Source: Nakamurella lactea DSM 19367 (lineage in GTDB: Bacteria; Actinomycetota; Actinomycetes; Mycobacteriales; Nakamurellaceae). Taken from it: DNA of 64,000 nt. The position numbers and the translations under genes are program-made. Shown here piece after piece: positions 20,482 to 43,699 of the stretch. Where the stretch lies: the NCBI RefSeq assembly GCF_000426645.1, contig NZ_AUFT01000008.1, positions 186,001 to 250,000 of the forward strand, read 5' to 3'. Every line of letters begins with the position of its first letter. Position 1 is the first letter of the stretch. Below the pieces are notes generated by a model that was given only the letters and a program-made list of their open reading frames with translations, was not told the origin of the DNA and did not search any database.

Positions 20482-22002
20482 ATGTCGTCACCGAATTCCG
20501 GAACCGCCGTCCGGGGCCGGGCGCGCCGCCGGACCGGTGGCAACCAGGCAGTCCAGAATCAGGCAGTACAAGGTCCGCACGCGGACGAGGAGGTCGGGGC
20601 ACCGATGACGGCTGGGGCGGCGCTGCAGGAACAGCAGTACGAGTCCGAGCCGCGGGCGTCCCGCTTCGATCGTCAGCCGCCGCAGGATCTGGCCGCCGAG
20701 CAGTCGGTGATCGGTGGCATGTTGCTGAGCAAGGACGCCATCGCCGATGTCGTCGAGACGCTGCGCACCGGCGACTTCTACAAGCCGGCGCACGCGTTGA
20801 TCTTCGACGCGATCCTGGACCTGTACGCCAAGGGTGAGCCGGCCGATCCGATCACGGTGTCGGCGGAGTTGGACCGGGTCGGCAGCATCGGCCGGGTGGG
20901 TGGCGCGACCTATCTGCACCACCTGACCTCGACGGTGCCGACGGCGGCGAACGCCGGCTACTACGCGCGGATCGTGGCCGAGAAGGCGATCCTGCGGCGG
21001 CTGGTGGAGGCCGGAACCACGATTGTGCAGTTGGGCTACGGCGGCGCCGAGGGTGAGGTCGGCGGTGGTGAGGTCGACCAGATCGTCGACCGGGCGCAGG
21101 CCGAGATCTATGAGGTGACGGAGCGGCGGACGGCCGAGGATTACGTGATCCTGGACGATCTGCTGCAGCCGACGCTGGACGAGATCGACGCGATCGCCAA
21201 CAACGGCGGAATGTCGTCGGGGATCCCGACCGGTTATGCCGACCTGGATGCGCTGACGAACGGGCTGCATCCGGGTCAGATGGTGATCATCGCGGGCCGG
21301 CCGGGTATGGGTAAGTCCACGGTGGCGATGGACATGGCCCGCAACGCCGCGATCAAGCACAAGATGTCGACCGTGGTGTTCTCGCTGGAAATGAGCAAGA
21401 CCGACCTGACGATGCGGTTGTTGTCGGCGGAGGCGGAGATCAAGCTCAGCCAGATGCGCGGCGGGTCGATGACGGACCGGGACTGGCAGAAGATCGTCCG
21501 GCGGATGGGCGAGATCTCCGATGCGCCTTTGTACATCGACGATTCGCCGAACATGACGATCATGGAAATCAGGGCGAAGGCGCGGCGGCTCAAGCAGCGC
21601 ACCGACCTGAAGCTGATCGTGGTCGACTACCTGCAGCTGATGACCTCGGGCAAGAAGGTCGAGTCCCGGCAGCAGGAGGTCTCCGAGTTCTCCCGGCAGA
21701 TGAAGCTGCTGGCCAAGGAACTCGAGGTTCCCGTGGTCGCGCTGTCGCAGCTGAACCGTGGACCTGAGCAGCGCACCGACAAGCGGCCGATGCTGTCCGA
21801 TCTTCGTGAGTCCGGTTCGCTGGAGCAGGACGCCGACCTGGTGATCCTGGTGCACCGGCCCGATGCCTGGGACGCCGAGGATCCCCGCGCCGGCGAGGCC
21901 GACCTGATCGTGGCCAAGCACCGGAACGGCGAGACCCGCACCATCCCGGTCGCCCACCAGCTGCACTATTCCCGCTTCACCGACCTCGCGGCGGGCATGT
22001 AG
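20482..22002 (+). CDS. dnaB: Replicative DNA helicase
   Basis: Up to 506 residues. N-domain QPPQDLAAEQSVIGGMLLS; RecA-like C-domain with Walker A GRPGMGKST, EMSKTDLTMR, Walker B LIVVDYLQLM, and the QLNRGPEQR arginine-finger region with LRESGSLEQDADLV. No intein is inserted at the usual P-loop site. It unwinds DNA at the fork as a hexamer. An alternative ATG at 20605 has GAGGAGG upstream and gives a length closer to mycobacterial DnaB. The last 77 codons reappear, diverged, at 24981-25211. Confidence 0.96.
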   Translation: MSSPNSGTAVRGRARRRTGGNQAVQNQAVQGPHADEEVGAPMTAGAALQEQQYESEPRASRFDRQPPQDLAAEQSVIGGMLLSKDAIADVVETLRTGDFYKPAHALIFDAILDLYAKGEPADPITVSAELDRVGSIGRVGGATYLHHLTSTVPTAANAGYYARIVAEKAILRRLVEAGTTIVQLGYGGAEGEVGGGEVDQIVDRAQAEIYEVTERRTAEDYVILDDLLQPTLDEIDAIANNGGMSSGIPTGYADLDALTNGLHPGQMVIIAGRPGMGKSTVAMDMARNAAIKHKMSTVVFSLEMSKTDLTMRLLSAEAEIKLSQMRGGSMTDRDWQKIVRRMGEISDAPLYIDDSPNMTIMEIRAKARRLKQRTDLKLIVVDYLQLMTSGKKVESRQQEVSEFSRQMKLLAKELEVPVVALSQLNRGPEQRTDKRPMLSDLRESGSLEQDADLVILVHRPDAWDAEDPRAGEADLIVAKHRNGETRTIPVAHQLHYSRFTDLAAGM

Positions 22003-22103
22003 GACCCGGGTTCGGCTCCCCACTGGTGCAGGTCGATTCACCTGTGGAGACGGGAATCGATGCTAGTCATTGACTTCGACAGGCCGACCTGGAGGATTCA
22101 AGC

Positions 22104-23732
22104 ATGATGCCGAGGCTGCCGAGCGTTCCCACCAGTCAGACCGACGCAACTGGCTCATCCGGAGCCAGGCTGGTCCAAGGTCTCCTTCAAGGGTTGCGCC
22201 AAGGCGTGAACCTAGCCACGGACAACGATGTCGGCACAGACTTTCACATGGAGCTGCGGATCCCTTCGACGGGCGAAGGGATCGGCCTGACTGTTGGCGG
22301 CCAGATCAAATCGGGGCTCAGCTTCTTCGAGTGGAGTGGCTCGACCGATGAAGATGGCTCAGGGTGGTGGTTCTACGAAAAGGAAGGGGACGCCCACTTC
22401 GGACTTTGGTCCTTGAGTTCGATCCCATACATATTAGTGCTCTACAATCCCCAAACTACGGATGCTCATTGGGTGCATGTCTCAGAGACGAGAATCGTCA
22501 ACACCAACAGCGTTCAGGGCAAGAAGATCTTTGTACCGGGCAAGAATCTTTTGAATGCCGACGCCATTGATCAAATCATCGAGATTGCGAAGGCCTCGTA
22601 TCTTCGGAACCCCTACCAAGGCACGATTTGGAGAACATCAGACCTTACTGTGCAGGAGTCGATACGCTATCGAGTTGCCCTGATCGCACCAAGACTGATC
22701 GCCCCGCATCCGAACCAAGGGCGTTTAAAGCCCCAGGATCCCTGCGCCGCCATTGGCATAGTCCTGACTGGATTCAGCCATTATCTTCAGGGTGAGCAAC
22801 CGGATGACGACTTGCCGCACGGAACGGGGTGGGGGTGGATGTTCTATGACGCGTTCGCTGCCTGGATGGCAGGTGAGGGTGTCCGTGGGATTAAGGCAGC
22901 CCTGTTCGCGTCCGAAATGCCGAGTCAGCGAGCAGCAGCCGCAGTCTTGCTAGTTGCAGCACTTGTTGATGACGATCGGCCGAACGACGCGCTCGATGCC
23001 CTTCGAAGTGTAGATCTCTTAGGCATGACCGAGACCGATATCTGTTGGCTTAGAGCTCACGAGACTCAGTTACTGTATGACTTGGGTTGCGAGCGTGACG
23101 CTAAGGACCTAGCCGTAGTGTGGCTCAATCGGGCACGACGGATCGCTGGCGATATCACACTTGAGCCAATCATCGCATCACTCACGTCTACAGTGTTCCG
23201 CCTCAGCGACTGGGAGGGCCAAGACGTAAAGACGCTCATTCAGAGCCGAGATAATCTCTCGGCATGGTGGCGAGCGTTCTCGATGGAGTCCGTACCCTCG
23301 AGGGAGGTGGACTTTTCCTTCTCTCGGACAGGAGTGAACCTTTCGAAGGTTGCTGACGCTGACGTGGAGAGCCACAATCGGTTGACGGCTGCCGCGGTGA
23401 CCTGTCTGATGTCGGCCAATTACGAAAGTTGGCGGGCATACAGCAATCAGCTGGCGAAGCTCGACTACGCTCGACTGCGCGGCAATCGGTCTGATGGGGC
23501 GGGAATATTGAATGTCATAAATACGCTTCGAATGTGCAACTCTCCCAAAGAGGTCGGTGCCATCGCCTATCAAATCTGGATGACCGGCCCAGTCGACGAT
23601 CTCTCGAAGGCTACAATTGCAGCAGGTAGTGCGAGGGTCACGCGGCACTCCCTGGACTCGTGTGCCAGGCTGTTCCAGCATGCCGGCGACCTGTTGCCGA
23701 CGGATATGCGCTCTCGGCTCGTGTCTCAGTAG
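22104..23732 (+). CDS. DUF4365-like nuclease-fold protein, N-terminal part, ends at an in-frame amber codon
   Basis: 542 residues before TAG. The first about 150 residues resemble DUF4365 (a PD-(D/E)XK-like fold): NDVGTDFHMELRIP provides the Asp, then GLTVGGQIKSG gives the Q-x-K element; later GKKIFVPGKNLL. The rest is helical and TPR/HEAT-like (AAAVLLVAALVDDDRPNDALDALRSV). Codon use is unlike neighbours, with many AGA, ATA and AAT codons and clearly lower GC, so horizontal transfer is likely. Start ATG 22104 has GGAGG eight bases upstream. The frame continues after the TAG without a stop for another 393 codons, so this is probably one gene split by a nonsense mutation. Confidence 0.7.
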   Translation: MMPRLPSVPTSQTDATGSSGARLVQGLLQGLRQGVNLATDNDVGTDFHMELRIPSTGEGIGLTVGGQIKSGLSFFEWSGSTDEDGSGWWFYEKEGDAHFGLWSLSSIPYILVLYNPQTTDAHWVHVSETRIVNTNSVQGKKIFVPGKNLLNADAIDQIIEIAKASYLRNPYQGTIWRTSDLTVQESIRYRVALIAPRLIAPHPNQGRLKPQDPCAAIGIVLTGFSHYLQGEQPDDDLPHGTGWGWMFYDAFAAWMAGEGVRGIKAALFASEMPSQRAAAAVLLVAALVDDDRPNDALDALRSVDLLGMTETDICWLRAHETQLLYDLGCERDAKDLAVVWLNRARRIAGDITLEPIIASLTSTVFRLSDWEGQDVKTLIQSRDNLSAWWRAFSMESVPSREVDFSFSRTGVNLSKVADADVESHNRLTAAAVTCLMSANYESWRAYSNQLAKLDYARLRGNRSDGAGILNVINTLRMCNSPKEVGAIAYQIWMTGPVDDLSKATIAAGSARVTRHSLDSCARLFQHAGDLLPTDMRSRLVSQ

Positions 23733-24914
23733 GTTCAGCTCCTGACCGAGAATGCTTCCCCACTTCGCAATCTTGTTACACAATCCCTAAGCCTTCAACA
23801 GGAAATAATCAGAGCTATAAGTACGCTAGTTGTCGGCTGTGGCATTGAAACACACAGCGAGGCGCTTGCCGGGATGCTCAGATCATCTAGCGCTTCGAAT
23901 GAGCTCGTCAACCAGGAGTGGACCCGGCTCATTGACCATGTTGGTGATAACTTCTTGCGGAGCCGATTGCCAGATATTGAAGTTTGGGTTGAACAGCACC
24001 CGACAAGCAGTGTAGCAATCGCTTTGAGCACGAAGCTCGTGGACTATTCCGAGATTTGCCGAGCGGTGATTATGCGTGTCGCCTCTTCGAATGGCTATCT
24101 CGCGGTGAATGCGCTGGATTCGCAGCAATTCCCAATCGAAATTCTAATTGAGTACGTCACGCACTGGCGAGATGCACCGAAATCCCGAATCGTGGATTGC
24201 GAAACACCTGGCCTTGGTATGGGCGGGGCGGAGCCCTGCGAGATATTGACCCTAGCATCGATCAAGCGCCCAGAACTAGCTGAATGGGCGAGCGTAATAG
24301 AGTTCCTGGAGAGCGGTTCCGTCTACGGCTTTTTGAAGAGGAGGCCTCTAAGTCTGATCGCAGCGAATGCCAGTTCGATTCCAGTCGAGATTTCGGCACA
24401 GGTATGCGCCGCCTTGGACCGGGGATTGCCGCGACGAGATTTCGTTCATGAATTTCGGTCGTCGGATACACTTGGTGGAATGCCTGAGGTTTGTCGAGCT
24501 ATGCTCGGGTCGGTTGGCAAATCGAACGTGCGAAAGCAGGTCGAGCGACTTGCTCTGGGCACTAAGCGAGAACGATCCGACTGCGTCGATCTCGTCTCGG
24601 CTGCGGGTCTCGACTCGTCATCGTTCGTGCTCAAATATCTATCTCGGGATCCTGTCTCGTCAGTTCGCTACAATGCTCAGCAAGCCCTCTTGTACGGCGT
24701 TATCACGCGCGGCAACAAGAACGAATTTCAAATTGCCCTGAGTGAGCTCGCGGACGAGCGCCATGGCATTTCTCAGTCGATGCGATTGGTCCGACACCTG
24801 GTCGACACGAATGGGCGCAATGTATCCGCGAACCGGCTCGCGGAACTGAAGAGAGTTCTGTCAGTTTCGCGCTCGGCCCGGGTGCGATCGGCGTTGGCCG
24901 ATCTACGGCTCTGA
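23733..24914 (+). pseudogene. Same-frame continuation of the DUF4365-like gene after the amber codon
   Basis: The frame of the preceding gene stays open from 23733 to the TGA at 24912-24914 (393 codons). An internal ATG at 23874 would give a 346-residue product but lacks a ribosome-binding site, and the 47 codons between stop and ATG read as ordinary protein (QLLTENASPLRNLVTQSLSL). The segment is helical with repeated EWASVIEFLES and ALLYGVITRGNKNEF-like helices, possibly HEAT-type repeats. GC is as low as in the first part. I see no domain I can name. Confidence 0.7.
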
Positions 24915-24980
24915 TCCCGGCCGCGGGGGCGAGGTCTACTCGATCACAGTGCCCTGCCAGCTGACCGTGGACCCGAGCAT

Positions 24981-25211
24981 CGGACCGACAAGCGGCCGAC
25001 GCTGTCCGACCTTCGTGAGTCCGGTTCGCTGGAGCAGGACGCCGACCTGGTGGCCCTGGTGCACCGGCCCGGCGCCTGGGATGCCGAGGATCCCCGCGCC
25101 GGTGAGGCCGACCTGATCGTGGCCAAGCATCGGAACGGCGCGACCCGCACCATCCCGGTCGCCTATCAGCTGCATTACTTCCGCTTCACCGACCTCGCGG
25201 CGCGCATGTAG
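24981..25211 (+). pseudogene. Duplicated 3' end of dnaB (77 codons)
   Basis: The 231 bases align without gaps to 21772-22002 of dnaB, both ending at TAG. The encoded 76 residues differ from the DnaB C-terminus at 7 positions by my count (for example TLSDLRES for MLSDLRES). Weaker similarity extends upstream to about 24947 with small indels. The copy has no start or promoter of its own. It marks the right edge of the low-GC insert that begins after dnaB. Confidence 0.9.
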
Positions 25212-25280
25212 GTCGAAAGCGACCCGGCTCCTGTATGCACGGCCATGCGGCGGATTGCTAGACTGTGCACGGAGGTGTTG

Positions 25281-25859
25281 ATGATGAGCACACTCGCCGA
25301 AGTGCTCGGGACCTACGCGCCCGAGATCAGCGAGACCGACTTCGCCGAGGACTTGCGATTGAAGTTTGAGCAAGTCCACGGCACCGACGACCCGTCGCTG
25401 ACCGCCGGCGAGCTGGCGTTCCTGAGCGAACACGGCGGCGAAGCAGCACGGAACGCCGTCGCTCAGTGGGATCCGGAGGCAGAACGCGACCGCCGCAGCC
25501 GCATCGTCGCCGCAAGCGCGCAGCATGTCTTCGCCCAGACCCTCTCGGCCGCCCAGGTAGCTGAACTGACCGGCAAAAGCCGATCCCAGATCACCCGCGA
25601 CCTCAACGCCAAGAGGTTGTATGGGCTCAGCGTCGGTCGTCACTGGCGAATCCCGCGCTGGCAGTTCACCGAACACGCTGTCCTGCCCGGCCTGGTTGAG
25701 GTGGTGCCTACTATTCCGGAGCACCTGCACCCGAGCGTCGTCGAAGGGTTCATGACCACCGACCAGGACGAACTCGGAGCGCGGACTCCGATCGACTACC
25801 TGTCAACAGGTGGCAACCCGGCACTGGTTGCCGAAATGGTCGCCGAGCTCGCCCGCTAG
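25281..25859 (+). CDS. Xre/MbcA/ParS-type antitoxin
   Basis: 192 residues. Central helix-turn-helix AAQVAELTGKSRSQITRDLNAKRLYGLSVGRHWRIPRWQ is a DNA-binding excisionase/Xre-like module; the C-terminus TPIDYLSTGGNPALVAEMVAEL is the DUF2384-type toxin-binding tail. It directly precedes a RES-domain toxin with a one-base overlap, the standard antitoxin-toxin order. GGAGG at 25271-25275 supports ATG 25281 (or 25284). The antitoxin is expected to cap the toxin active site and repress the operon. Confidence 0.85.
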   Translation: MMSTLAEVLGTYAPEISETDFAEDLRLKFEQVHGTDDPSLTAGELAFLSEHGGEAARNAVAQWDPEAERDRRSRIVAASAQHVFAQTLSAAQVAELTGKSRSQITRDLNAKRLYGLSVGRHWRIPRWQFTEHAVLPGLVEVVPTIPEHLHPSVVEGFMTTDQDELGARTPIDYLSTGGNPALVAEMVAELAR

Positions 25860-26482
25860 TGACCCGCATCGCGAAGGTCCCTTCGAATCCTCCAGCTGAG
25901 TTGGTTCGCGAGCCCCGTGACGTCGTCGTCCGTCGCCTGCCGCTGTGGCGCATCCACACAGCCAGGGGTCCGTACCCGAGCCGCTGGAACGCCCTTCGGA
26001 CCTTCGGTCCGCTGAAGACCGCACGGTTCGACCCGCATCCGCCCCCGCTAGGCGACCATCCGGGATACGGCGTCGCCTACACCGCGTTCGACATCGCAAC
26101 GTGCGCGGCCGAGGTGTTTCAGGCATCCCGGACGATCGCACTCACCGACGAGCACGACGTCACTGGCTGGCCGCCGACACGAGATCTGCAGCTCCTCGAC
26201 CTCACTGACACCTGGGCGCTACGCAACGGCGCTTCCAACTCGCTGGCCTCATGGAAGCGGTCGACGTGCAGGGCCTGGTCCGCCGCAATTCGGGACAGCT
26301 GGCCAGACCTGGACGGTCTGGTCAGTCGCTCGACCATGACCGGCCGAGAGATGGTTACCCTCTTCGATCCGTCGTTGACTGCATTTCCGGCGGCCCCCTC
26401 GTTCCGCCGGCCACTCGACCATCCAGCGATCCAGGCGACCATGGTGCGCGCGGCCGCCGAGTGCGGGTATCGAATCGCCTGA
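25859..26482 (+). CDS. RES-domain toxin (NAD+-degrading, MbcT-like)
   Basis: 207 residues. RES family features: LWRIHTARGPYPSRWNA with the conserved Arg residues, then GVAYTAFDIATCAAEVF with the conserved Tyr and Glu, and a C-terminal Ser-rich region. Characterised relatives (MbcT, Res) break down NAD+ by hydrolysis or phosphorolysis. GTG start overlaps the last base of the antitoxin stop, so translation is coupled. Length and spacing indicate an intact pair. Confidence 0.85.
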   Translation: MTRIAKVPSNPPAELVREPRDVVVRRLPLWRIHTARGPYPSRWNALRTFGPLKTARFDPHPPPLGDHPGYGVAYTAFDIATCAAEVFQASRTIALTDEHDVTGWPPTRDLQLLDLTDTWALRNGASNSLASWKRSTCRAWSAAIRDSWPDLDGLVSRSTMTGREMVTLFDPSLTAFPAAPSFRRPLDHPAIQATMVRAAAECGYRIA

Positions 26483-40151: not shown

Positions 40152-41933
40152 ATGAAAGCCCGTCGATCACTGCTGGTCGCGTCGGTGTTCGTCGTCGCCA
40201 CAACATGCGCTCCCCTGATCGTCGCTGTTCACGCGGCGGCGGCGCCGGCCTCGCCCGGTCGCAGCTGGCATCCCGAAGCGATGCAGACTCGATCGAAGGA
40301 GCGCGTTGCCGACGGTCCGAACGCTGTCCTTCGGTCGAACAGTGCCCCCCGTTCGAAGGCCGCGATCACGGGCCCATCACAGGCGAAGCCGGGGTTGTCG
40401 GCCGCGCAGACCATTCCGCCCGACCTTTTGGTGCGAGATGGAGGCACGAACGCTGGAGCGCTCGGGGTGGCCACTACCACCGGCCCGGCCGACCCATGGC
40501 AGATCACGACTGACGTTGCGGGGCAATGGGATTGGGCTGACCAGCTGCTGTCGGCAGACGTCACCGGCGACGGCCGCACGGATCTCATCGCTAGGTCGGG
40601 AAGCCGACTCTACGTCTACCCTGGGACAGCAGACCCGGCCAACCCTTGGCCGACCCGCTTCGTCGCCGGGACCAACTGGGGCCGCTTCGACACGATCGTG
40701 ATCGCGGATGTGACCGGTGATGGCAGGCCCGATCTGTTGGCCCGTGAACCAGGCGCCGCGAGCGGCACCCTGAAGATCTTCCCCCACAATGGCGCCTCCA
40801 GCGGAAACGTCTGGACGGGGACAGGTCGCTGGGCGGGCACCGGCTGGAACCTGGCCACCACGATCATGCTGGCCGACGTCACCGGTGATCACCTCGCCGA
40901 CATGGTCATTCGGGACGGCAACGGTGACTTGTGGATCTATCCGCACAACGGCATCACCAACGGAAACCCGTACACCTCCCGCGGATTCGCCGGAAGTGGC
41001 TGGGGCACCGCCGATCTGATGACGCTGATCGACCCCGGAACAGGCTTCCCTGACCTGGTGATCCGTGACCGCTCGGGGGCGCTCTGGCGCTATCCGCACA
41101 ACGGCGCCAGCACCGGCAATCCCTGGGGACCAAGAGTGTCCGGGGGCGCCGGCTGGTCGGACACGAGCGCTCTGCTCGCGGCCGACGTTGATTCCGACGG
41201 CCGCCAGGACCTGCTGGCCGTGCACCGCAGTGCCACCCTCTGGCGCTATGAGACCGCCACCGGTGCAGACCTCTGGCCGATCAGGTCGTCCGCAGGTACC
41301 GGGTGGAACTTCGACGACGCGATGGTGACTGCCGATGTCGACGGCGACGGACTTGGCGACATCGTCGTCCGTGAGCCAGGCCGGTCCGATGGCTCGCTGT
41401 GGCTCTACCCGGGAACACAGCCCGGTGCCGTGCCTGCTCCACCTGTACTACTCGGCACGGGATGGAACCTTGCCCGGCGGTTGGCAGTCGGTGATGTGAC
41501 CGGCGACGGCTTCCCCGATCTCGTCGTTATCGACCGGGCGGGCGACATGTGGGTCTACCCGAACAATGGATCCGGCGACCGCACGCCATTCGACCAGGGA
41601 CGCAGCTGGATCGGCACCGGCTGGGGAACGACAGCGAAGTTGCTGATGCTCGATGCCGACCACGACGGCGAAGCAGATCTGGTCGACGTCGAGACCGACG
41701 GCACCGCGTGGCTCTACCGCGCCGGACAGGCGCCCTACCGGATCCCGGGCGAGTTCGGAGCCGCCCGATCACTCGCCGGCGGCGACATCGACACTTCCGG
41801 AACCCCGAGCCTGGTCGTCCTCTGGAGCGACGGGCGGTTGAGTGTCCGCGAGTTCGGATCGCAGTCGACCCCATGGACCGATGATCGGTTCCTGGCCGGC
41901 GACTGGGATTTCGCCTCCCACGTGTTGTTGTGA
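40152..41933 (+). CDS. Secreted FG-GAP/VCBS beta-propeller protein (left copy)
   Basis: 593 residues. Signal peptide MKARRSLLVASVFVVATTCA and an Ala-rich cleavage zone, a low-complexity linker, then about nine repeats of the type DVTGDGRPDLLAR, each followed by a LWIYPHNG strand. The Asp-rich loops bind calcium in FG-GAP/VCBS blades, giving a seven- to nine-bladed propeller. No catalytic residues are evident; carbohydrate binding or partner recognition is likely. It lies 61 bases after the Tat-protein gene with AGGAGAG before its ATG. Paralogue at 55764-57617 next to the second Tat-protein gene. Confidence 0.85.
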   Translation: MKARRSLLVASVFVVATTCAPLIVAVHAAAAPASPGRSWHPEAMQTRSKERVADGPNAVLRSNSAPRSKAAITGPSQAKPGLSAAQTIPPDLLVRDGGTNAGALGVATTTGPADPWQITTDVAGQWDWADQLLSADVTGDGRTDLIARSGSRLYVYPGTADPANPWPTRFVAGTNWGRFDTIVIADVTGDGRPDLLAREPGAASGTLKIFPHNGASSGNVWTGTGRWAGTGWNLATTIMLADVTGDHLADMVIRDGNGDLWIYPHNGITNGNPYTSRGFAGSGWGTADLMTLIDPGTGFPDLVIRDRSGALWRYPHNGASTGNPWGPRVSGGAGWSDTSALLAADVDSDGRQDLLAVHRSATLWRYETATGADLWPIRSSAGTGWNFDDAMVTADVDGDGLGDIVVREPGRSDGSLWLYPGTQPGAVPAPPVLLGTGWNLARRLAVGDVTGDGFPDLVVIDRAGDMWVYPNNGSGDRTPFDQGRSWIGTGWGTTAKLLMLDADHDGEADLVDVETDGTAWLYRAGQAPYRIPGEFGAARSLAGGDIDTSGTPSLVVLWSDGRLSVREFGSQSTPWTDDRFLAGDWDFASHVLL

Positions 41934-41959
41934 TTGACCGAATGCAATCGGAGGAAGAC

Positions 41960-43699
41960 ATGGGACGCGCACGCGTCGGACGGCTGGTGGCCGCGGTACT
42001 GCTGGCACTGTCCGCCACCGTCTTTGCCTCGGGGATAGCCCAGGCGATTGAGATACCGAAGGACCTGATCGCTCAGAACTTCCCCGATCCGGACGTCGTC
42101 CCGGTCAACGGCACCTGGTACGCCTACTCCACCAACACCTGGGCCTACCTGCCGGTCGCGTCGGCACCGACGGTCGACGGACCATGGTCCTTGCAGGGTG
42201 ACGCGATGCCCGGCGGGCCGTCGACGAGCTGGGCAACCGCCGGCCGGACTTGGGCTCCCGATGTGGCGGTCAACAGCGACGGCACGTTGACCGTGACCTA
42301 CACCGCATGGCACACCGCATCAGGTCGGCAGTGCATCGGAGTCGCGAAGGCCACCAGTCCGCTGGGGCCGTTCACTCCCGTCGGAACCGGCCCTCTGCTC
42401 TGCCCGCTGGCGCAAGGGGGCGCCATTGACGCGAGCACCTTCGTTGAACCCGGAGGATCGCGCTATCTGCTGTGGAAGAACGACGGCAATGCCGTCGGCG
42501 TCTCGAGCTCGATCTACCTGGCCCCGGTCAACTCCGACGGCACCGCGCTCACCGGATCACCGACGGCATTGATCACCGGACCAGCCGGTTCGATCATCGA
42601 AGCACCCGTCGTCGTCCGGCGGCCGACGGGCTACGCGATGTTCGTCTCGACCGGGGGCTACGGCGGATGTGACTACCAGACGGCCTATGCCACTTCGACC
42701 AGTCTCAACGGACCGTGGACCGGCCCAACCACCTTCATGACGACGGGGAACACCGGTGTGTGCGGACCTGGCGGTGCAGACGTCAAGACCGCCACGAACG
42801 GGCTGACCGGCGGGGACAAGGTGATCTTCCACGGTTGGGTGAACGGCGCCCGCCACCTATTCTCCATCGACCTGAGCTGGAACGGCCTGCAGCCGGTTCA
42901 AGGCGGTAGCAGGGCAAGCTCGTTGGACGGTGACGGCCGCGCCGAAATCGCTGCCGTCCGGCGCGACGGGGAAGTGCAGGCCTGGCACAACGATCTGGGC
43001 TTTGCCGTCAGTCCCTACGGTGACTCGCTGTTCATCACCACCGGATTCGACGACCCGGCGCGGACCCGGTTCGCCGATCTCGATGACGACGGCCGCGCAG
43101 AGGCGATCTACATCACGACCAACGGTGAGATCTGGGCCTGGCACAACGACGCCGGGTTCGCCTCCAACCCCTTCGGGACCTCCCGATTGATCGCCACCGG
43201 GTTCACCGATCCCGCCAGGGTGCGGTTCGCCGATCTCGACGATGACGGCCGTGCCGAATTGATCAACATCGCCGCGAACGGCGACGTGACCGCCTGGCAC
43301 AACGATGCGGCATTTGCGACCGCACCGTACGGGGCATTCAAGGTGGTCGCGACTGGGTTCTCCGCGGATCGCACCCTGTTTGGCGACCTGGACGGCGACG
43401 GTCGGGCGGAGATCATGGATATTCGCCCGAACGGTGAGATCTGGGCATGGCACAACGACGCCGGATTCGCAACGACGCCGTACGGCAACTCGGCGCTGAT
43501 CGCCGACGGATTCATCGACCCCGAACGCGTGAGGGTCGCCGACCTCGACCAGGACGGTCGTGTCGAGATGATCTCGATCCAGCCTGACGGGCAGGTGCGG
43601 GCCTGGCACAACGACACCGGCTTCACCGACAGGCCCTACGGCGACTCCGTGATCATCGCCGATGGATTCACCGAGCCGGACCGGGTCATCTTCATCTGA
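41960..43699 (+). CDS. Secreted GH43-like glycosidase with C-terminal VCBS repeats
   Basis: 579 residues. Signal peptide up to about residue 29 (SGIAQA). The GH43 five-bladed fold shows NFPDPDVVPVNGTWYAYST (catalytic base Asp43), TWAPDVAV, then IDASTFVEPGGSRYLLWK (pKa-modulating Asp) and IIEAPVVV (general acid Glu). GH43 covers arabinanases, arabinofuranosidases, xylosidases and galactosidases. From about residue 325 five VCBS repeats (DLDDDGRAELINI) each carry an AWHNDAGFA strand. GGAGGAA supports ATG 41960; an earlier in-frame GTG overlaps the previous stop. Confidence 0.85.
   Translation: MGRARVGRLVAAVLLALSATVFASGIAQAIEIPKDLIAQNFPDPDVVPVNGTWYAYSTNTWAYLPVASAPTVDGPWSLQGDAMPGGPSTSWATAGRTWAPDVAVNSDGTLTVTYTAWHTASGRQCIGVAKATSPLGPFTPVGTGPLLCPLAQGGAIDASTFVEPGGSRYLLWKNDGNAVGVSSSIYLAPVNSDGTALTGSPTALITGPAGSIIEAPVVVRRPTGYAMFVSTGGYGGCDYQTAYATSTSLNGPWTGPTTFMTTGNTGVCGPGGADVKTATNGLTGGDKVIFHGWVNGARHLFSIDLSWNGLQPVQGGSRASSLDGDGRAEIAAVRRDGEVQAWHNDLGFAVSPYGDSLFITTGFDDPARTRFADLDDDGRAEAIYITTNGEIWAWHNDAGFASNPFGTSRLIATGFTDPARVRFADLDDDGRAELINIAANGDVTAWHNDAAFATAPYGAFKVVATGFSADRTLFGDLDGDGRAEIMDIRPNGEIWAWHNDAGFATTPYGNSALIADGFIDPERVRVADLDQDGRVEMISIQPDGQVRAWHNDTGFTDRPYGDSVIIADGFTEPDRVIFI

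Follow-up and report, generated by a model that had tools for sequence, protein, structure and literature searches.

Insertion with long target duplication leaves a gene between two long direct copies of its target and requires no mobility gene; the genes inserted in this way are mostly those of restriction-modification systems. The accounts in PMC3031569 and PMC1643837 describe the process in these terms and credit it to Nobusato et al. 2000. Prophage e14 of Escherichia coli K-12, as presented in PMC4759930, carried an end of the icd gene of its own and was inserted by an integrase. The alleles differ by 12 SNPs, 10 of which are synonymous and 2 are not, and the insertion leaves icdA and icdC with 11-bp direct repeats. 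The locus described here lies in a window of 64,000 nucleotides taken from a 454,695-base contig of a 5.8-Mb draft genome of Nakamurella lactea DSM 19367. It resembles long target duplication in that direct copies of 249 nt, 92% identical, flank an insert without any mobility gene. It differs in that one copy is a decayed gene end, no empty site is available, and the cargo is a nuclease-solenoid gene rather than a restriction-modification pair. The likeness to e14 and icd is that the target gene is whole and a second 3' end (icdC there, tail 2 here) lies beyond the insert. Unlike e14, this locus has no integrase or phage gene and no identical core at the crossover end, and the differences between its two tails are one-sided and half nonsynonymous. 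The best account is that a defence-type gene inserted behind dnaB with long target duplication, at a probability of about 0.5, and this is favoured over tail replacement of the e14 type. An event of this type is already known, and it is the cargo family that could add interest. The features of the locus are as follows.

20482-22002, + strand: dnaB, intact, 506 aa, without an intein (DnaB_C and DnaB N-terminal domains)
21755-22003, + strand: tail 1, the duplicated dnaB 3' end that is part of the working gene (repeat, polarised substitutions, tree)
22004-24956, no strand: insert, 56.0% GC (composition, repeat limits)
22104-24914, + strand: cargo gene, one frame of 936 codons including a stop at codon 543, with a DUF4365 nuclease-type domain and a predicted alpha-solenoid
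22203-22586, + strand: DUF4365 (PF14280) part, cargo residues 34-161, with D46, Q67 and K69 present (profile match)
23730-23732, + strand: single in-frame TAG that splits the cargo gene into two ORFs
24957-25212, + strand: tail 2, a truncated and apparently decaying second dnaB 3' end that lacks one base near its start (repeat, substitutions, tree)

The two copies of the dnaB end form an ungapped direct repeat (21755-22003 and 24964-25212) with a spacing of 3,209 nt, and the alignment extends back to about 24957 if one base is taken as deleted in the second copy. The repeat starts inside dnaB, near codon 423, and ends one base past the dnaB stop codon. Beyond it, on both sides, no extension of homology was better than in shuffled sequences. 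The initial annotation had described an insert behind dnaB with a dnaB tail on either side and seven amino-acid differences within 24981-25211, and the repeat and the codon comparison bear this out (M-T, I-A, D-G, E-A, H-Y, S-F and G-R). A search of the whole window gave three families of direct repeats of at least 60 nt, one of which is the dnaB-tail repeat. The other two are internal repeats within a single ORF of 589 aa (41930-43699), whose 3' part contains, at 42900-43684, imperfect copies of a repeat of about 156 nt. A scan of 21900-25400 gave no forward promoter-like and no terminator-like sites, and such a scan is weak for genomes of this kind. Directly past tail 2, an HTH/Xre-MbcA-like gene and a RES-domain gene occupy 25245-26482 and are a probable toxin-antitoxin pair.

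The history of the two tails was read from trees, from polarised substitutions and from identity to relatives. In a FastTree tree of the tail region only, tail 1 and tail 2 are sisters with a support of 0.937 and branches of 0.007 and 0.090, respectively. In a FastTree tree with more of dnaB, they are again sisters (0.952), with branches of 0.013 for tail 1 and 0.074 for tail 2. The tails differ by 19 substitutions, after an apparent one at 21754 was dropped as an artefact of the placement of the deletion. Sixteen of these could be polarised, 13 being derived in tail 2 and 3 in tail 1 (P = 0.011, or P = 0.004 with two ambiguous sites assigned to tail 2), and two of the three ambiguous substitutions are nonsynonymous. 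All three changes derived in tail 1 are synonymous. Among the 13 derived in tail 2, seven are nonsynonymous, and four of these seven fall at bases that are identical in all 15 relatives. Identity to the relative G016 is 88.8% for the body of dnaB, 86.5% for tail 1 and 81.2% for tail 2. Tail 1 is thus about as similar to the relatives as the remaining dnaB, and it is not chimeric. Because the divergence is one-sided, the tails are sisters and tail 1 resembles relatives as the dnaB body does, tail 2 looks like a redundant, decaying spare copy of the dnaB end.

The initial annotation had read the divergence as a sign that one tail came from another species. The 8% divergence and the stop of homology at the stop codon would fit such an acquisition, but identity between the tails (92%) exceeds that of either tail to any of 15 relatives (at most 88% for tail 1 and 83% for tail 2), and the divergence falls on one side. 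A tail from another species is therefore very unlikely; the tree, the polarity of the substitutions and the identity values speak against it, and the data do not require such a donor. Nonsynonymous changes make up 7 of 13 in tail 2, against 70% expected in the absence of constraint, a shortfall that is not significant (P = 0.17). This counts against the favoured account, in that some of the changes may have arisen before the insertion. The tail donor may have been of the same or a very close species, given that the insertion may be younger than some of the synonymous changes.

A dnaB match is present in 16 of 17 genomes of the genus, and the 17th genome is an assembly that is 88% complete. A second dnaB tail is found only in the genome of the window, and the other 15 of these 16 genomes lack it. 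Some genomes of the genus also gave weak matches of 31-80 nt, which were not counted as dnaB tails. In a sample of the order, the dnaB tail matched in 388 of 397 genomes. Among the matches listed, a copy of the tail in a short frame (98 aa) occurs only in the genome of the window, and the next shortest frame has 348 aa. Clustering of ORFs gave no common gene order downstream of dnaB in the 15 relatives, and none of these relatives (0/15) has the antitoxin, RES and methyltransferase genes of the window near dnaB. Where the right-flank DNA has matches within the genus, these are distant from dnaB or on a different contig. As no relative has the same flanks beside dnaB, an empty site cannot be drawn; the 15 relatives are single-copy but without these flanks, which counts against the favoured insertion with target duplication. 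A role of the dnaB 3' flank as a defence hotspot was considered and rejected. Among 20 genes downstream of dnaB in the 15 relatives, 12 have a Pfam match, and these comprise six enzymes or regulators, four members of uncharacterised families, one transposase-like gene (G009) and one DUF1016 gene (G011). The dnaB genes of five relatives (G007, G009, G014, G012 and G006; L031, L033, L037, L038 and L039) carry an in-frame insertion near residue 280 and have ORFs of 838-974 aa. This insertion is probably an intein at the Walker A region, and it is absent from the dnaB of the window.

The insert contains no integrase and no transposase, in agreement with the statement of the initial annotation that no integrase is present. 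The nearest tyrosine-integrase match (PF00589, six in the genome) is on the same contig at a distance of about 198 kb. The genome gave no match to the large serine recombinases (PF07508), and the sole resolvase (PF00239) is on another contig. These results bear on an unlikely alternative, in which the locus is the remnant of a tail-replacing integrative element of the e14 and icd type. Such an element would have carried its own dnaB 3' end, been inserted by an integrase and later lost all but one cargo gene, so that tail 1 would be that of the element and tail 2 the displaced native end. The geometry of an intact gene, an insert and a truncated tail is the same in both cases, and one cargo homologue (L117) adjoins a tyrosine integrase gene. 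The best point of this alternative is that the repeat stops at the stop codon, as if the element had brought a coding tail only; an end within one base of the stop codon is rare for a random duplication and counts against long target duplication. Against it, no integrase is present within about 198 kb, and a repeat of the dnaB tail is found in no other genome of the genus. The crossover end of the repeat, which is its start, is its most decayed part and has no long identical core; identical runs are longest away from the start, the longest being 42 nt at 21802. The differences between the tails are one-sided and half nonsynonymous, as opposed to 10 synonymous and 2 nonsynonymous in e14 and icd, and this comparison is suggestive only (Fisher P = 0.10, or 0.047 with two ambiguous sites).

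The present arrangement would follow from long target duplication if dnaB recombined, by a single crossover, with a DNA molecule on which the cargo gene lay beside a dnaB 3' fragment. After this crossover, dnaB would have kept a working end (tail 1), and the truncated tail 2, being useless, would have begun to decay. For such a crossover, a dnaB-bearing plasmid would be an obvious carrier, and a lead in this direction comes from the dnaB of Pseudonocardia plasmids, at an identity of at most 84.3%. The dnaB tail matched 196 plasmid records, the best at 84.3% and none at 90% or more. Three Pseudonocardia plasmids (NZ_CP012183.1, NZ_CP010990.1 and NZ_CP011869.1) have dnaB-like sequence that is 82-84% identical to the dnaB end of the window. 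On phages, 24 records matched the dnaB tail and none reached 90%, while in viral contigs the protein identity was at most 86% among the 80 matches listed. No case of integration at dnaB appeared among the papers listed in a literature search.

The insert (22004-24956) has a GC content of 56.0% against 66.8% for the window, and the cargo gene has a GC3 of 0.62 against 0.89 for dnaB. The initial annotation had described a low-GC DUF4365-like gene. The domain and the composition were confirmed, the profile match to DUF4365 (PF14280) having E = 4.4e-14 and 53.2 bits against a curated cut-off of 24.3, but the gene is larger than was described, as its frame of 936 codons spans the next ORF. The ORFs 22104-23732, which holds DUF4365, and 23874-24914 share one open frame, in which the TAG is the sole break. 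The first ORF matches PF14280 only, the second has a sub-threshold HEAT match, and the insert holds no gene besides these two ORFs. The model of the read-through protein, built on an alignment of nine sequences, has a mean pLDDT of 76 and a pTM of 0.71. It predicts an N-terminal alpha/beta domain followed by a continuous helical solenoid, and the TAG would fall within a helix at 533-548. Profile positions of about 780-925 have HEAT-type repeat matches, mostly to designed ones.

The N-terminal part of the cargo protein is similar to nuclease parts of SPARDA by profile (9qbq, E = 3.5e-9; 9jsb, E = 3.8e-5). In Foldseek, this part matched 9qcc and 9qbp, which are also SPARDA nuclease parts, and the remaining top matches were eukaryotic solenoid proteins. 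The likeness to SPARDA and the DUF4365-APAZ nucleases (PMC10810196; PDB 9qbq, 9jsb), so far as these sources describe them, consists of the DUF4365 nuclease-type domain and a QxK pair. Unlike SPARDA, the cargo protein has no APAZ match and the insert has no Argonaute gene, and a long solenoid is present instead. D46, Q67 and K69 are invariant in the nine sequences. In TmuRE, Q62 and K64 are given as potential active-site residues and were altered in an inactive mutant (PMC10810196), and the QxK pair of the cargo (Q67/K69) would correspond to them by its sequence. Matches of PADLOC models are chiefly to the nuclease part of the cargo. The cargo is probably a DNA-cutting defence protein. DSR2 is a single-gene phage sensor with a SIR2 effector domain followed by a long alpha-helical sensor. 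The cargo resembles DSR2 (8zc9) in plan only, since the Foldseek match (rank 39, TM 0.29, E = 3.8e-3) is too weak for homology, and it differs in having a PF14280 nuclease-type domain and no SIR2. By analogy with DSR2, the solenoid of an intact relative of the cargo may sense an invader, upon which the nuclease would be released.

If tail 2 has changed neutrally since the insertion, its decay gives a rate against which the state of the cargo can be set, namely 13 to 15 changes in about 250 nt, or 0.052-0.060, and simulations were run at 0.055 and 0.065. At 5.5-6.5% neutral change, 5.5-6.5 stops are expected in an unconstrained cargo gene, and one is observed. One stop or none occurred in about 2% of the simulations at 5.5-6.5%, in 9% at 0.04 and in 41% at 0.02. 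Tail 2 has a one-base deletion in about 256 nt, and the cargo keeps one frame over 2,811 nt. The single stop and the otherwise preserved frame suggest that selection probably acted on the cargo over much of the time since the insertion, or that the cargo is younger than the duplication. If part of the change in tail 2 is older than the insertion, this argument for selection is weaker. The useless dnaB tail may serve as a rough neutral clock, against which the frame of the cargo suggests selection and late breakage.

The second of these readings agrees with an alternative in which a local duplication of the dnaB tail came first and the cargo arrived later and independently between the copies. 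The tails are sisters within this lineage, as such a duplication would leave them, and a cargo younger than tail 2 would also account for the single stop. This sequence of events is nevertheless quite improbable, being less likely than replacement by an integrative element. Two events would have had to hit the same spot, the genus showed no case of tandem dnaB tails that lack cargo, and between the tails neither a transposase nor any other sign of an independent insertion was found. Under the favoured insertion with target duplication, the cargo would have stayed in frame for most of the time since the insertion and then been broken or split by one TAG. As it was apparently in frame for most of that time, it was probably useful. 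The TAG may mean that the gene was lost late or is split, or it may be a sequencing error, and these cases look alike in the data.

Homologues of 928-1,118 aa continue through the point of the TAG, and the gene of G012 is one frame of 934 aa. The cargo gene is patchy, occurring in 2 of 17 genomes of the genus and in 21 of 397 genomes of the order, partial matches included. In the species collection, matches were found at 29 loci, many of them to the nuclease domain only. Eight plasmid records matched, all below 60% identity, and no phage record did. No dnaB was found near other cargo homologues at E 1e-5 (0 of 36 loci, with flanks of at most about 9 kb and three loci that are apparently duplicates). 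Selected neighbour genes were surveyed at 12 homologue loci, and clear restriction or defence neighbours occur at three of them. In G012 (L115), HsdM and HsdR are followed by the cargo homologue as the last gene of the run. In Prescottella subtropica (L118), HsdS, GmrSD and HsdR precede the cargo homologue. In Jidongwangia harbinensis (L125), the adjoining gene has XhoI and Shedu C-terminal matches, and an AAA/MTES_1575 gene is also present. Clear defence neighbours at only 3 of the 12 scanned loci count against the insertion of a defence-type gene. In Blastococcus (L111), a neighbour has a sub-threshold match to a pPIWI-associated nuclease. Mobility-type neighbours occur at four of the 12 loci, comprising transposase or integrase-core genes (L112 and L113), a tyrosine integrase (L117) and a conjugation coupling-protein-like ATPase (L114). 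The genes scanned at L116, L121, L123 and L124 include no defence or mobility neighbour.

The locus shows, in readable form, a defence-type gene that came to lie next to the essential replication gene dnaB with no mobility gene in sight. It further draws attention to a protein family that is uncharacterised, has about 930 residues with a nuclease-type domain and a solenoid, and recurs beside restriction genes. A speculative and rather unlikely extension, drawn by analogy, is that this family, with its DUF4365 nuclease-type domain and a solenoid of about 750 residues but neither APAZ nor Argonaute, represents a single-gene anti-phage system that is missing from the libraries used. It would be DSR2-like, with a nuclease in place of SIR2, and would move on its own, without an integrase, by insertions that duplicate the end of an essential gene. 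If this is true, the host could lose the cargo through recombination between the repeats and come to no harm, because the insertion has duplicated the essential gene tail.

The RES toxin was considered as a part of the element and rejected. In G012, less than 1 kb separates a RES gene from the cargo homologue; this may be chance, as RES matches are present in 11 of 17 genomes of the genus. In Blastococcus sp. TF02-09, the homologue (L113, 159-1637, the same place as L122) ends at 492 aa and adjoins a transposase-type gene, and it is possibly another broken copy.
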